Source of the DNA: Methanofollis ethanolicus
GTDB taxonomy: Archaea > Halobacteriota > Methanomicrobia > Methanomicrobiales > Methanofollaceae
NCBI RefSeq assembly: GCF_001571385.1
Contig: NZ_BCNW01000001.1
Location: 62,001-126,000 of the forward strand
Length of the DNA: 64,000 nt
Direction of reading: 5' to 3'
Shown here: positions 54,505 through 60,865 of the stretch, piece after piece
Position numbering within the stretch: position 1 is the stretch's first letter
Layout: every line of letters starts with the position of its first letter
Made by a program: the position numbers and the translations under genes
Notes under the pieces: generated by a model
Databases searched by the model: none
The model's input: the letters and a program-made list of their open reading frames with translations, nothing else
What the model was told of the DNA's origin: nothing

Positions 54505-55452
54505 ATGGAATGCAACTGGGATGAATGCGGCGATCCTGTCAGACAGGTCAGGCTTTCGGCAGGGATGACAGCAAACGAACTTGTCCGCGCAATCGGCGGA
54601 GCAGGAGCCTATAACGGCGGAGCACTCGCAAAAGCGGTCGACATATACGAAAAAATGCTCCGCGACGAGAAGGCGACAAAGTACTTCGGGCTCGCCGGGG
54701 CGATGGTCCCTGCCGGCATGGGCGGGATCGTCAGCGAGCTCATCGAGAAAGGGCACATCGACATCCTCGTTTCGACCGGGGCAAACCTCACCCACGATAC
54801 CATCGAAGCGATCGGTTGCCACCACTACCACGGCACCTCGACCTGCGATGACATCAAACTGAGAGAAGAGGAGATCAACCGCATCTATGACATCTTCCTC
54901 CCTGACGAGGCCTTCATACGATTCGAGGAGTTCATGCAGGACTGCCTCTCCAATATCCCCGATAAATCGGTGATCACCATCTCGGGCCTTCTCCGCCACA
55001 TCGGCGAGCACCTCGACCACGGCATCCTCGCAACCGCGGCAAAGAACGACGTCCCCGTCTTCTGCCCCGCGGTCCAGGACTCGATGCTCGGCATGCAGTT
55101 CTGGTTCTACAACCAGAGCCACCACATCGTCGTCGACACCTTCGGCGACATGCACGACATCATCGACCGCTGCTATGCAGCAGAACACGCCGGCGCGTTC
55201 CTTGTCGGCGGCGGCGTCCCGAAGAACTTCATCTTCCAGAACAAGATGATCACCCCCTCGGGCTTCGACTACGCGATCCAGCTCACCGGCGACCGCCCGG
55301 ACCTCGGCGGCCTCTCCGGCGCCACACTCTCCGAAGCGCAGTCCTGGGGCAAGATCAACGAAGACGCGGCCGCAATCACCGTCTATGGCGATGCGACGAT
55401 CAACCTCCCCCTCATCGCCGCGGCGGTCCTGGAGAGGCTGGAACATGACTGA
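54505..55452 (+). CDS. dys: Deoxyhypusine synthase
   Basis: A 315-residue enzyme that transfers the aminobutyl group of spermidine, using NAD, to a lysine of the translation factor aIF5A. The central Rossmann-like fold shows LAGAMVPAGMGGIV, VSTGANLTHD and LVGGGVPKNF. The catalytic lysine lies in SEAQSWGKI near the C-terminus. The start could also be an internal ATG at 54565. It overlaps pyrF by eight bases, giving a two-gene unit. Confidence 0.93.
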   Translation: MECNWDECGDPVRQVRLSAGMTANELVRAIGGAGAYNGGALAKAVDIYEKMLRDEKATKYFGLAGAMVPAGMGGIVSELIEKGHIDILVSTGANLTHDTIEAIGCHHYHGTSTCDDIKLREEEINRIYDIFLPDEAFIRFEEFMQDCLSNIPDKSVITISGLLRHIGEHLDHGILATAAKNDVPVFCPAVQDSMLGMQFWFYNQSHHIVVDTFGDMHDIIDRCYAAEHAGAFLVGGGVPKNFIFQNKMITPSGFDYAIQLTGDRPDLGGLSGATLSEAQSWGKINEDAAAITVYGDATINLPLIAAAVLERLEHD

Positions 55453-56080
55453 CCTCGTCCTCTCCCTCGACGTCACCAACCGGGCATCTGCGCTCACCAT
55501 CGCAGCGGCCTGCGCAAGGGAAGTCGATGCGATCAAGATCGGTTACCCCCTCGTCCTCGCGGCCGGCCTCGGGATCGCCCGCGACCTCGCGGGCCTCGGG
55601 CTGCCCCTCATCGCTGACTTCAAGGTCGCAGACATCCCGAATACCAACACCCTCATCTGCGACCAGATCTTCGCTGCCGGTTTCTCCGCGGTGATCGCCC
55701 AGGGCTTTCCGGGCCCGGACTCTGTCGCCGCCTGTGTCGACACCGCCCATGCCCACGACGGGGAGTGCTATGTCGTCGCCGAGATGAGCCACCCCGGCGC
55801 GCTCACTTTCTTCTCCGAGGGCGTGCCCGAGCATCTCTGCGAGGTCGTCGCACAGACCGGCGCCGACGGCATCATCGCCCCGGCGACCCGCCCCGAAAGG
55901 GTGAAGGCCCTCCGCGCCCTCATCGGAAAAAAGAAGATCCTCTCCCCGGGCATCGGGGCGCAGGGCGGCGACCCCGCGGAGGTCGCACCCCTCGTCGACG
56001 GCATGATCGTCGGCCGGGCCATCTACGGGGCGGCAGACCCGGCGGCGGCCGCCCGGACCTACGCACCCTACCGCCGATGA
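55445..56080 (+). CDS. pyrF: Orotidine 5'-phosphate decarboxylase
   Basis: A 211-residue TIM-barrel enzyme that forms UMP from OMP. The first strand is LVLSLDVT and the catalytic Asp-Lys-x-x-Asp cluster appears as DFKVADIPNT with the lysine of KIGYPL before it. The C-terminal phosphate-binding loop is MIVGRAIYGAADP. Length is normal for archaeal PyrF. It is coupled to dys by an eight-base overlap. Confidence 0.94.
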   Translation: MTDLVLSLDVTNRASALTIAAACAREVDAIKIGYPLVLAAGLGIARDLAGLGLPLIADFKVADIPNTNTLICDQIFAAGFSAVIAQGFPGPDSVAACVDTAHAHDGECYVVAEMSHPGALTFFSEGVPEHLCEVVAQTGADGIIAPATRPERVKALRALIGKKKILSPGIGAQGGDPAEVAPLVDGMIVGRAIYGAADPAAAARTYAPYRR

Positions 56081-56291: not shown

Positions 56292-57917
56292 TCAGCCCAG
56301 TCTCCAGATGGGAGAACCACCCTTGCCGAGGTTTGCCTGAAGATATCCAGACGCAGGGTCAGAGGCGATCGGGATCTCATAGACGAGATAGCCGATGGTA
56401 CGGTCTTTCCTTTTGAGAGTCACATCAGAGTAAACAGAACCGACACACTCGATATATGCTTCAGGCTGTTTCGGGACATACTTGTCGCCACCGAGAAGGA
56501 GAGTAAAACCTGATGCTTTCGGCGTCCTGAATGTCTGGCTCCCCTTTCCACCGTATCCAAGGTGGTTGATCTCCACGAGCACACAGAGGAACTCCTTCCC
56601 GTACGGCGGCAGGTGCTCGGTCACTGTATCACCCATCTCTGTGGTGTACCGGTCCATCTGCGTGACCGGGCCGACCTTCACCGAGATCGTGTTCCCCTCG
56701 GAAGCGTCCTTGAACTTGTACCGGCCCAGGGGAGCGAGGGCATCAGGGTATAGAGACTGCGCGGCGATCACCTGGACTCCGAGCGCCGGGGCAGATAGGG
56801 AAAGTTTTTCCAGGGCACTGCCGATCCTGGCCTGGCCCTGGACAAGGCACTCATTCCCGCGGGCAAACGCGTCGGCATCACTGAAGGTCGCACCGTACCA
56901 GAGGAGAGACCCCGCCTCCTGATACGTCCCGAGCCCGGCACCGTATTCACTGAAGGCAGGGGCACATCCAGAAGGGACGGTGCAGGACCGAAGATCCTTT
57001 TCCCGCGTCCGGGCAATGCCAATAAGTTCATCAGAGAACCGGGCAACGGCAGCATAGTCGTTCCTGTCTGCTGCGCGGGATATCTCATCTATCTTCACGT
57101 TCATTGTGTTCGTGCCGTCGGCAACCTCGGCCTTCAGGACATCCAGAGGGATGGCCCGTGTCGATCCACCATTCCCGGCCTTCACAGGCCCCCGTGCCGC
57201 AGATCCCGGCGGTTCATAGCCGGCAATCGACACACCCTTCGCGATCTCCACACCTGACCAGTCAATATTCCGGATATAGGCGGTATCATTACCTGAGATA
57301 GCCAGGGAAGAATCGGCCGCATTCAGGACAAATTTGAGGGAGGTGGCCTTCCCGTCAACTTTCCTGAAGACGACGGTGACAAAGCCGAGTCTGTCCTTTA
57401 TCTCCCCCGAATAGAGAGCCCGGACAATCGCCGTCGCGTCCTTCTCGTACCACCAGAGAGTATTCTGGAGGCGGTCGCCTTCGGCCGGGCAGACTACCAC
57501 GACCTTCACACCCATCGGACGCCCCAGATAGCCGGTATCGGCAAGGTCAGGGTCGGTGATGAGGGGAAAGGCCGTAACATCGGTCACGCCTGTATTATTC
57601 CCGGCAGACGCAAGAGAACCCGAGATCTCGTCCACGGCCTCCCGGGCCTGTGCGGCATACAGGGAGAGGGGATCCATCTCTTCAACGGCCGCGGCCAGCA
57701 CAGGGGCAGGTTCCTCGTTTCCTGAAGCCGGCCCCAGCAGGGATGGCAGGCCAGGGACGCCCGATCCGTTCTCCTCATGAAAAAATACGGCGGCAGAGGC
57801 CGTGACACCACACCCCAGGAGAAGAAGGAGGACGGCGAGCAGGAAGTATCGTGTACAACTCCTGCCACCCCCATTCTCCCCTGAAAAATGGGAGACAAGG
57901 GAATTTACTGAATGCAT
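56292..57917 (-). CDS. Membrane-anchored surface protein with C-terminal DUF4352-like domain
   Basis: A 541-residue protein with one hydrophobic N-terminal segment (residues ~25-45), so most of it is outside the cell. The middle part is Ala/Asp-rich and I do not recognise it. The last ~130 residues, with FLCVLVEINHLGYGGKGSQTF and later YLVYEIP, look like the immunoglobulin-like DUF4352 domain of surface proteins. Two cysteines, around CTVPSGC, may form a disulfide. Start is ATG 57917; ATGs further inside would lose the anchor. No functional partner is adjacent. Confidence 0.75.
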   Translation of the reverse strand: MHSVNSLVSHFSGENGGGRSCTRYFLLAVLLLLLGCGVTASAAVFFHEENGSGVPGLPSLLGPASGNEEPAPVLAAAVEEMDPLSLYAAQAREAVDEISGSLASAGNNTGVTDVTAFPLITDPDLADTGYLGRPMGVKVVVVCPAEGDRLQNTLWWYEKDATAIVRALYSGEIKDRLGFVTVVFRKVDGKATSLKFVLNAADSSLAISGNDTAYIRNIDWSGVEIAKGVSIAGYEPPGSAARGPVKAGNGGSTRAIPLDVLKAEVADGTNTMNVKIDEISRAADRNDYAAVARFSDELIGIARTREKDLRSCTVPSGCAPAFSEYGAGLGTYQEAGSLLWYGATFSDADAFARGNECLVQGQARIGSALEKLSLSAPALGVQVIAAQSLYPDALAPLGRYKFKDASEGNTISVKVGPVTQMDRYTTEMGDTVTEHLPPYGKEFLCVLVEINHLGYGGKGSQTFRTPKASGFTLLLGGDKYVPKQPEAYIECVGSVYSDVTLKRKDRTIGYLVYEIPIASDPASGYLQANLGKGGSPIWRLG

Positions 57918-58054
57918 CGGTATAAGGTAACAGGATTAGGTTATAATATCTTACGATTCGGGATAAGGGAAGTAAGACGGGTCTTTTCATGGGTTCCCGC
58001 CGGCAACCGGCCGAAAGAAGTACCCTTTAATAATTTCAGCAGGAAGGATTAAGC

Positions 58055-58417
58055 ATGCAATGGAGCGACGAGCAACTGGCGCTGGCAAAAAAATACAGGA
58101 AGTTATCTGACATCCCGGTCGAAGAGCGCAGGTACAAGTGCCACACCTGCAACCATGTGGTCGGAACCGATCCCTGCCCGGTCTGCGGCGAGACCCAGCT
58201 TGAGATCATGTGCCCCCTCGACCACACCCACTGTGCTCACGAGATCGTCTCGGGGATCGAGTACTGCCCGCTGTGCGGTGCCCCGGTCTGCCCGGAATGC
58301 GGCTCCCATGACGTCACCCAGATCAGCCGGGTCACCGGATACCTTCAGGACGTCTCCGGCTGGAATGCCGGAAAACAGCAGGAACTCAAAGACAGAGTCA
58401 GGTACACCGTTGCATGA
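58055..58417 (+). CDS. Stand-alone protein resembling the C-terminal glycyl-radical domain of NrdD
   Basis: Only 120 residues, whereas anaerobic ribonucleotide reductase has 600-800. The second half (CPLCG, CPECG, then SRVTGYLQDVSGWNAGKQQE) matches the zinc site and glycyl-radical loop at the very C-terminus of NrdD; RVTGY contains the radical glycine. An additional pair of cysteine knuckles (CHTC, CPVC) is at the N-terminus. The gene begins with its own AGGAAGG site, so it is not a simple truncation artefact. No catalytic nrdD or nrdG lies nearby. It overlaps cbiZ by four bases. Confidence 0.82.
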   Translation: MQWSDEQLALAKKYRKLSDIPVEERRYKCHTCNHVVGTDPCPVCGETQLEIMCPLDHTHCAHEIVSGIEYCPLCGAPVCPECGSHDVTQISRVTGYLQDVSGWNAGKQQELKDRVRYTVA

Positions 58418-59319
58418 GATATTACCACACCCGTGACACCCTCTTTGTGCGGGGGTTCTTCCGGGCGGCGAGCACCGGGATCGGCGGCGGGGTCAGGGGA
58501 GTGTCGACGATCTTCAATCACACGGTCCCGGAAAATTTCGACCATGCCGATCCCCCGCGCTATCTTCAGGAGATCGCGGCCTCGGCCGGGATCGGCGGCG
58601 ACTTTTTCGGCCTCCTGACCGCTGTCCCGATGCAGTACCTCTGTGTCCTGCAGTACGACTTTATCACGGCTTTCGTCACGGCGGGCGTCACGAACCCGAA
58701 CCCCGACCCTGACCCCGGGCACCCCCACACGATCAATATCATCGTCACCTCGCGGGAGGGCCTCACCGACGGCGCCCTCCTGGAGACGATCATCACCGCC
58801 ACGGAGGCAAAGGCGCAGGCGCTCAGGGTGATGGGGTACGACTTCACCGGCACGACCACCGATGCGGTGGCAGTTGCCTGCGAGGGGGAGGTGGCCCACA
58901 CCTATGCAGGCACCTTTACCGGGATCGGCAGGCGGGTCTATGCCGCCGTTCTCCAGGGAGTCCAGGAGGCGCTTGCCCGCCAGCAGGGGAAGGTCACACG
59001 GGATAAACCATCATTTTTCATTTTTTCCCGGTACGGGGGGGACCACTGGGTCGAGTGGCGGCCTGAAGGGTGTCCCTATTATCCCTGTCACTTCCCGGGT
59101 CAGGCCTGCGACTTCTGTTACTGCCCGTTCTACCCCTGCGGGGACATGGACCTCGGCGATGAGGTCGAAAGTTCGTCATGCGGGACTGTCTGGAGTTGCA
59201 GCCGCTGCACCCTCCTCCACGAGCCCGCGGTCGCGGCGTACCTGCGGCGGAACCCCGAGGCTTCGCTCGGAGAACTGAAAAAATACCGGACTTCCCTCAG
59301 AGGGAAGCCGGAAAAATAA
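58414..59319 (+). CDS. cbiZ: Adenosylcobinamide amidohydrolase (CbiZ) with C-terminal cysteine-rich domain
   Basis: A 301-residue protein. Residues 1-200 form the CbiZ domain (FFRAASTGIGGGVRGVST, FNHTVPENFDHADPPRYL, GYDFTGTTTDAVAVAC), which cleaves adenosylcobinamide to adenosylcobyric acid for salvage of external corrinoids. Residues ~210-275 are a compact cysteine-rich domain with CPYYPCHF, CDFCYCPFYPC and CSRC, which may bind a metal cluster. The ATG overlaps the preceding NrdD-like stop as ATGA. Methanogens need cobamides for methyl transfer. Confidence 0.92.
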   Translation: MRYYHTRDTLFVRGFFRAASTGIGGGVRGVSTIFNHTVPENFDHADPPRYLQEIAASAGIGGDFFGLLTAVPMQYLCVLQYDFITAFVTAGVTNPNPDPDPGHPHTINIIVTSREGLTDGALLETIITATEAKAQALRVMGYDFTGTTTDAVAVACEGEVAHTYAGTFTGIGRRVYAAVLQGVQEALARQQGKVTRDKPSFFIFSRYGGDHWVEWRPEGCPYYPCHFPGQACDFCYCPFYPCGDMDLGDEVESSSCGTVWSCSRCTLLHEPAVAAYLRRNPEASLGELKKYRTSLRGKPEK

Positions 59320-59629: not shown

Positions 59630-60865
59630 ATGGATCTATCCGAAGCAGCACAAAGAATCTCCCGAAAGTTCGAGTCGCAGAAGGTCAAAATCGACCCCGC
59701 AGAGGTGGAAAAGAAACTCCGAACCCTCGTCGAGGACTTCGGCGTCAACCTCACCGAGGCCGAGAAGACTGTCTCCGAGAACCTCGCACGCGATCACAAC
59801 CTCGCGTCCATGCCGGCCACGTCCTCAGAGATGCGCGAGATCGGGTCTCTTCTTCCTGGCGAATGGGCGACTGTAGAGGGGAAGATCGTCGGTGTCGCAA
59901 AGCCGGCCTCAGCCGCGATCAGCCAGAGCGGGACCATCGCCGACGCTACGGGCGCGATCCAGTTCACGGCCTGGGAAAGGGCAAAGGCGCCCCAGATGGA
60001 AGAGGGGCAGTGGTACAGGATCGAGTCCGCGGTCGTGGACGAGTACCGCGGCACGCCGAAACTGAACTTCCACAGCGGGACGACGATCACGGCGATCGAG
60101 AAGGAGGTCCCGATCATGCCGCAAATGGTCAGGATCTCCGACATGCGGCCGGGCGTCGCCAGCGTGAAGGTGAAGATGGTCCAGGAATGGGAAGCGCGGC
60201 ACGAGCGGATCCTCCAGACCGGCATCGTCGGCGACGAGTCGGGCACGATCAAGTTCACCATCTGGAAAGAGGAGGGCATGGAGCGGCTCGAACCGGGGAT
60301 GGTCTATAACATCTTCTACGCAGCTGTGGACGAGTACCAGGGGCGGCTTTCCATCACCCTCAACGGCGCAAAGTGTTTCCCTGACGAAGAGGCCGAGATC
60401 ACCGTCGGAACCGGCGCGGCCACCGTCACAGGGGCTATCGTGAATGTAGGTCCGGGATCGGGCCTTGTCAAGCGCTGCCCTGTGGAGGGGTGCAACCGCG
60501 TCCTCTCGAAGCGGAACTACTGCCCTGTCCACGAGGTCCAGGACAACTTCAGATATGATATCAGGATCAAGGGGGTGCTCGACGACGGGACGACGGCACA
60601 CAATATCCTCATGCAGAAGGATGTCGTCGAGGCGGTCACCGGGCTTTCTCTCGACGAGGCGGTAACGATCGCCCAGGAAAGCCCCCTCGGACTGGACGAC
60701 GTTTTCTACAAGATCAGGGATGCCGTGATGGGCCGCTACTTCGCCTGTTCAGGGAGCGACCTCGGCGACACTCTCCTTGTAAGGGAGTGCAGGCCCCTCT
60801 CCTTTGATACAGACCGGCATACAGAACTTCTCAACCAGATCGGAGGCGAGTCACATGCAGAGTGA
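59630..60865 (+). CDS. rpa: Single-stranded DNA-binding protein, replication protein A
   Basis: A 411-residue archaeal RPA that coats single-stranded DNA in replication and repair. Two to three OB folds are visible: around residues 75-165 (ATVEGKIVGVAKP, TAWERAKAP), 170-265 (ASVKVKMVQEWE, FTIWKEEG) and one near the C-terminus. A zinc finger with CPVEGC and CPVH lies at about residues 281-302. It overlaps the next gene by 11 bases, the usual RPA and RPA-associated pair of euryarchaea. Confidence 0.92.
   Translation: MDLSEAAQRISRKFESQKVKIDPAEVEKKLRTLVEDFGVNLTEAEKTVSENLARDHNLASMPATSSEMREIGSLLPGEWATVEGKIVGVAKPASAAISQSGTIADATGAIQFTAWERAKAPQMEEGQWYRIESAVVDEYRGTPKLNFHSGTTITAIEKEVPIMPQMVRISDMRPGVASVKVKMVQEWEARHERILQTGIVGDESGTIKFTIWKEEGMERLEPGMVYNIFYAAVDEYQGRLSITLNGAKCFPDEEAEITVGTGAATVTGAIVNVGPGSGLVKRCPVEGCNRVLSKRNYCPVHEVQDNFRYDIRIKGVLDDGTTAHNILMQKDVVEAVTGLSLDEAVTIAQESPLGLDDVFYKIRDAVMGRYFACSGSDLGDTLLVRECRPLSFDTDRHTELLNQIGGESHAE

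Follow-up and report, generated by a model that had tools for sequence, protein, structure and literature searches.

The open reading frame at positions 58055-58417 of the forward strand encodes a protein that, with a probability of roughly 0.9, is the subunit bearing the radical in a class III ribonucleotide reductase (RNR) whose two chains are both obligatory. On the basis of the sequence comparisons presented here, the zinc-plus-glycine radical domain of this enzyme is shown to be encoded in the Methanomicrobiales by a conserved gene of its own, unlinked to nrdD, whose product has gained a zinc module at the N-terminus. The enzyme class is known, and what is new, so far as searched, is its division into two chains, one of them a free-standing radical subunit. 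No description of a split NrdD in archaea was found in the literature searched, the reach of which did not extend to most subscription papers. The established picture of class III RNR is of a single catalytic chain that NrdG activates. With a naturally divided enzyme, radical installation, docking, and transfer could be tested separately and without mutation, and both the installation and delivery of the radical in trans and the swapping of the radical piece after oxygen damage would become directly testable.

The window, which is the entire 64-kb stretch of DNA that was analysed (C1:62001-126000), belongs to a Methanofollis genome of 2.71 Mb (G000) that is contained in three contigs and is 99.7% complete. 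The protein itself is 120 residues in length. Its ATG start codon is preceded by a ribosome-binding-site-like stretch, GCAGGAAGGATTAAGCATG, at positions 58036-58046 (+), which contains AGGAAGG and was recognized by eye only. Residues 66-117 correspond to positions 506-562 of PF13597 (NRDD) with an E-value of 2.9e-15 and a score of 56.4 bits (cut-off 26.2), and residues 78-117 correspond to positions 542-581, the very C-terminus, of the 581-position profile TIGR02487 (NrdD) with an E-value of 6.2e-16. The best PDB relative is residues 697-738 of the P. copri NrdD (8p23). The glycyl-radical domain (GRD) proper, delineated by residues 78-120, is encoded at 58286-58414 (+), and the zinc knuckles, C71-x2-C74 and C79-x2-C82, at 58265-58300 (+). 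The knuckles lie inside the PF13597 match and are invariant in an order-wide alignment of the free protein (28 rows, hereafter A1). The radical glycine of the RVTGY motif is Gly 95 (codon at 58337-58339, +). The sequence-only reading had described a 120-residue protein with zinc knuckles and RVTGY, its own start and a ribosome-binding site, and each of these elements was recovered.

The radical glycine is invariant in all 158 free proteins, the motif being RVTGY in 146 and RITGY in 12; these 158 loci represent 125 distinct sequences, and some of them repeat one genome. The C-terminal radical loop of a class III RNR, with its invariant glycine, is thus found on the small protein. For the free protein the dN/dS values range from 0 to 0.13 (NG86, 16 usable pairs). 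Because every one of the 158 homologues keeps the glycine and dN/dS does not exceed 0.13, the open reading frame is not a chance occurrence.

Residues 1-65 have no counterpart in the fused NrdDs. They include an extra zinc ribbon, C29-x2-C32 and C41-x2-C44 (58139-58186, +), which is missing from fused NrdD and whose four cysteines are invariant in A1, and a second Cys/His cluster composed of C53, D56, C60, and H62 (58211-58240, +), also invariant in A1. Of the latter, C60 is present in the free proteins of Methanococcoides and the Alkanophagales as well. The zinc-ribbon profile matches of the small protein fall just below the cut-off. The extra cysteines probably bind metal, and the module formed by residues 1-65 may dock the subunit onto the barrel chain. 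In the Methanomicrobiales-type viral copies the zinc ribbon is retained and the N-terminal helix is mostly lost, and the minimal conserved unit is therefore taken to be approximately residues 26-120. An AlphaFold model of the protein, calculated with 28 sequences, displays a pLDDT of 71, with the radical loop below 50, and a Foldseek comparison of this low-confidence model with the PDB gave no match at E ≤ 0.001.

No NrdD barrel is encoded within the 64-kb window, in keeping with the earlier remark that a catalytic subunit is absent nearby. The only other PF13597 matches of the genome are two parts of one intein-interrupted gene (G000:C1:952140-955280), located ∼832 kb from the small-protein gene. 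This partner nrdD is a frame of 1213 codons with the intein, marked by LAGLIDADG and intein-splicing matches, positioned between RPF and the cysteine of the catalytic region. It matches the ATP-cone weakly (22.5 bits versus a cut-off of 25.8). The finger-loop SCYQCC and the cysteine of RPFCQDW are conserved and can be aligned with those of full-length NrdDs, which by sequence places the class III barrel with its finger-loop catalytic cysteines on this unlinked partner. The partner aligns to PF13597 only as far as position 510, where it ends ...YFAFTRDLTVSLKRFREYHGEPLTKGKLGV, and its C-terminus contains neither zinc knuckles nor a radical glycine. The barrel and the GRD do not, then, occur in one polypeptide. 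As can be seen from the nrdD genes of the Methanomicrobiales, the reading frame ends just past the last barrel strand (TRDLTVSL). When placed on 8p23, the truncated NrdD profile extends to residue 681 and the small chain occupies residues 697-738, such that the two tile without real overlap and the cut falls at a natural domain border. An AlphaFold model of a truncated NrdD is likewise of low confidence, with a pLDDT of 52. The C-terminus of the main NrdD, which the sequence-only reading had singled out for inspection, is accordingly not intact, and of the options it had offered, that of one half of a split NrdD fits the genome: an NrdD without a GRD accompanied by an unlinked GRD gene. A complete NrdD in the genome together with loss of the glycine among homologues would have pointed elsewhere; the NrdD stops at position 510, and the glycine is kept by 158 of 158. 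In a separate observation, the gene directly following the truncated nrdD (L004:9347-10375, +) matches PF08735 (DUF1786) with an E-value of 9.8e-78. This family is described as a "putative pyruvate formate-lyase activating enzyme", a possible activation link for the truncated NrdD.

Additional RNR components are encoded in the genome. The radical-SAM activase NrdG is present as an NrdG2 of 251 residues with the motif CPVRCHYC (TIGR02495, 151.6 bits versus a cut-off of 131.15) encoded away from nrdD, and the gene for an NrdH-like redoxin (CPHC) runs into the start of the nrdD gene, an order that is also observed in G155. There is no PF01228 match, the signature of PFL-type glycyl-radical enzymes, in the genome, and the small protein contains its only detected glycyl-radical site. 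Given the presence of NrdG and NrdH and the absence of a PFL-type enzyme, NrdD is the only plausible partner, and a PFL-type partner was rejected. A class II RNR is encoded independently, by a gene that gives matches of its own, and the class III enzyme therefore need not be the main RNR of the genome.

The two-chain arrangement extends across the order. Among the split-type NrdD matches listed in 199 genomes, all end near position 510 (500-524), and the translated NrdD tails diverge directly after TRDLTV. Both halves are present in 118 of the 132 Methanomicrobiales genomes that are at least 90% complete and neither is present in 12, all from genus g16 (probably Methanocorpusculum); the co-occurrence with a truncated NrdD that had been put forward as a check was thus observed. 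The two discordant genomes, one with the large half only (G085, 93% complete) and one with the small half only (G194, 90%), likely reflect assembly gaps. The split NrdDs form one clade with a support of 100/100, and their nearest relatives are the full-length NrdDs of families f24 (Alkanophagales) and f18. The simplest reading is a single origin of the split in the ancestor of the order.

The small gene is embedded in a block that is conserved across the families of the order, namely pyrF, the GRD gene, cbiZ-zf, DUF1858 (on the opposite strand), RPA41, and an RPA-associated gene. At 127 loci, many of which are short, cbiZ is a neighbor in 114, pyrF in 98, and RPA41 in 98. In the window, the gene at 55445-56080 (+), which we take from its sequence and general knowledge to be pyrF, encoding orotidine-5'-phosphate decarboxylase, is the conserved upstream neighbor (its start codon is inferred), and a 541-residue gene (56292-57917, -) sits between it and the GRD gene. 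Downstream, cbiZ-zf (58414-59319, +) encodes an adenosylcobinamide amidohydrolase with a Cys-rich domain. Its ATG overlaps the stop codon of the subunit by 4 nt, and such an ATGA overlap is observed at 98 of 123 small-gene loci. The conserved RPA-like ssDNA-binding protein, with OB-fold and Ssb-like OB matches, is encoded at 59630-60865 (+). Note that cbiZ functions in the salvage of B12, the cofactor of class II RNR, yet it is coupled order-wide to a part of a class III RNR.

If the small protein is indeed the radical subunit, it would dock onto the chain holding the ATP-cone and barrel, and the extra zinc module would stand in for the lost covalent tether. Gly 95 in the small subunit would lose a hydrogen to NrdG, the glycyl loop would enter the barrel and hand the radical to the finger-loop cysteine (SCYQCC), and the active site would be re-reduced by the NrdH redoxin encoded beside nrdD. 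Activation of the P. copri enzyme involves a flipping out of the GRD (PMC12662201). If oxygen cleaved the chain at its radical glycine, only a cheap, swappable subunit of 120 residues would be lost, and viruses could bring their own copy of the GRD to drive the host enzyme. The class III NrdDs from P. copri, S. thermophilus, T4, and T. maritima share with the present system the GRD sequence, the zinc knuckles, and the radical glycine, as well as the ATP-cone, the barrel, the finger-loop cysteines, NrdG, and NrdH. In those proteins, however, the GRD is the C-terminus of one chain (PMC11226230), whereas here it is a separate, unlinked gene with an N-terminal zinc module. The split class II RNR NrdJa/NrdJb likewise consists of a barrel chain and a chain with C-terminal zinc-finger domains (PMC9669993). 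That enzyme is B12-dependent and its NrdJb has no radical, whereas here the detached piece holds the radical site and the partner chain is a PF13597 protein rather than a class II barrel.

Relatives of the small protein outside of the order bear upon a different role, that of a GrcA/YfiD-like spare part, in which a free GRD would repair an otherwise complete NrdD after oxygen cleavage. A profile built from A1 finds free proteins of 117-131 residues in family f8 (Methanococcoides-like) and the Alkanophagales, with matches that extend past the GRD; the f8 proteins score ∼95 bits over residues 15-119, whereas fused NrdD reaches ∼60 bits over 43 residues. The genomes encoding them also contain complete NrdDs (L143-L150, L155-L159, L162), full-length with respect to the profile (1-562), and these free proteins could be spare parts or alternative donors. 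Such parts have been suggested to exist for other glycyl-radical enzymes (PMC8683613), and 16 viral contigs have the part by itself, much as T4 has one for PFL. For the protein under discussion, however, a repair function is improbable. No split-type NrdD in the genome or the order has a GRD of its own to damage, and the one full-length NrdD that the order yielded (G001, L066; 569 residues, RVSGYL) is a divergent extra enzyme that accompanies a split pair and was probably acquired separately. GrcA/YfiD and phage T4 Y06I, the spare parts for PFL, are likewise small free glycyl-radical proteins with versions in viruses. The GrcA/YfiD domain is of the PFL type (PF01228), whereas that described here is of the NrdD type in a genome devoid of PF01228. 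Furthermore, YfiD replaces a damaged GRD (PMC8683613), whereas here the subunit is obligate; coexistence with a complete target enzyme is seen in the Methanococcoides-like genomes and the Alkanophagales but not in this genome or order. The spare-part option raised by the sequence-only reading thus fails for this genome, which has no complete NrdD to repair, but suits these distant relatives. The Methanomicrobiales represent the obligate state and the other groups contain free and complete forms together, with the direction of change left unsettled. Genome G252 encodes a free GRD protein with an altered C-terminus and a degraded look (L151:4834-5160, +), its gene lying ∼240 nt upstream of that for a class II RNR.

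That the small protein is instead a zinc or regulatory protein reusing the GRD fold without a radical, and the truncated NrdD a relic, is highly improbable. Its ten conserved cysteines and zinc-ribbon-like matches, the presence of a class II RNR in the genome, and gene neighbors that are not RNR genes would agree with such a role, but the radical glycine and the surrounding loop are invariant, the catalytic cysteines of the strongly conserved partner are intact, and the two genes are jointly present or jointly absent. That an ordinary one-piece nrdD only seems divided through an error of assembly, a frameshift, or an intron, as the inteins and introns that often interrupt nrdD genes and the intein of the partner itself might suggest, has a negligible probability. 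This reading was rejected in that the halves lie ∼832 kb apart in a three-contig genome, the same layout is found throughout the order in a conserved and different neighborhood, and the intein has another position and does not account for where nrdD ends. In phages (the T-even intron, phiAS4, and Lactococcus phage 949) nrdD is likewise interrupted (PMC3653736), but by introns, inteins, or fragmentation into adjacent ORFs, whereas the pieces described here lie at unlinked loci throughout the order, are monophyletic, and have intact ends.

The survey beyond the phylum covered viral contigs and phage records only. Sixteen IMG/VR contigs of 5-70 kb carry the free GRD protein with no NrdD barrel in the record, although the records may be incomplete. 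Two of the sixteen, L240 and L241, are near-duplicates, and L259 contains an insertion directly after RVTG. Several of the contigs are confirmed as viral by genes for a terminase, portal, or baseplate, three of the sixteen (L265, L268, and L271) resemble the Methanococcoides type, and the hosts are inferred from sequence. The occurrence of the small protein alone on these contigs is most easily explained if it works in trans, and T4 Y06I provides a known viral parallel for PFL (PMC8683613). Virus-borne copies would constitute a new viral route to the control of host DNA precursor supply. We lean slightly toward the broader proposal that the class III RNR GRD is a tradeable part. It would be obligately separate in the Methanomicrobiales and kept in reserve by some Methanosarcinales and Alkanophagales, while archaeal viruses and many phages of rumen and gut bacteria would carry it without the rest of the enzyme and use it as a radical donor acting in trans, either to take over the host reductase or to repair it.

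Approximately 24 further viral contigs (L295, L303, L304, L307-L309, L312-L314, L316, L317, L319-L324, L326-L330, L332, and L333) contain ORFs of ∼50-195 residues whose C-terminus is a radical loop of the NrdD type, R[IV]TG[YF]...WNxGKxAELKDR, with no NrdD barrel in the record and, in most cases, without zinc knuckles. Their PHROGs matches are to NrdD C-termini only, and Eggerthella phage EL753P1 also contains a match, which has no annotation. These small ORFs could be phage-borne radical-loop donors. Finally, a phage NrdD on two contigs, L338:1123-3596 (-) (IMGVR_UViG_3300043084_000128) and L339:1123-3596 (+) (IMGVR_UViG_3300043102_000037), ends ...NECPCCHRKETEIRHTTIKRIEE just before the radical loop, and the adjoining ORF of 92 residues comprises its own N-terminal domain plus RRITGYLTGTVDRWNNGKRAELKDRVKH. 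This looks like an independent split at a different point.
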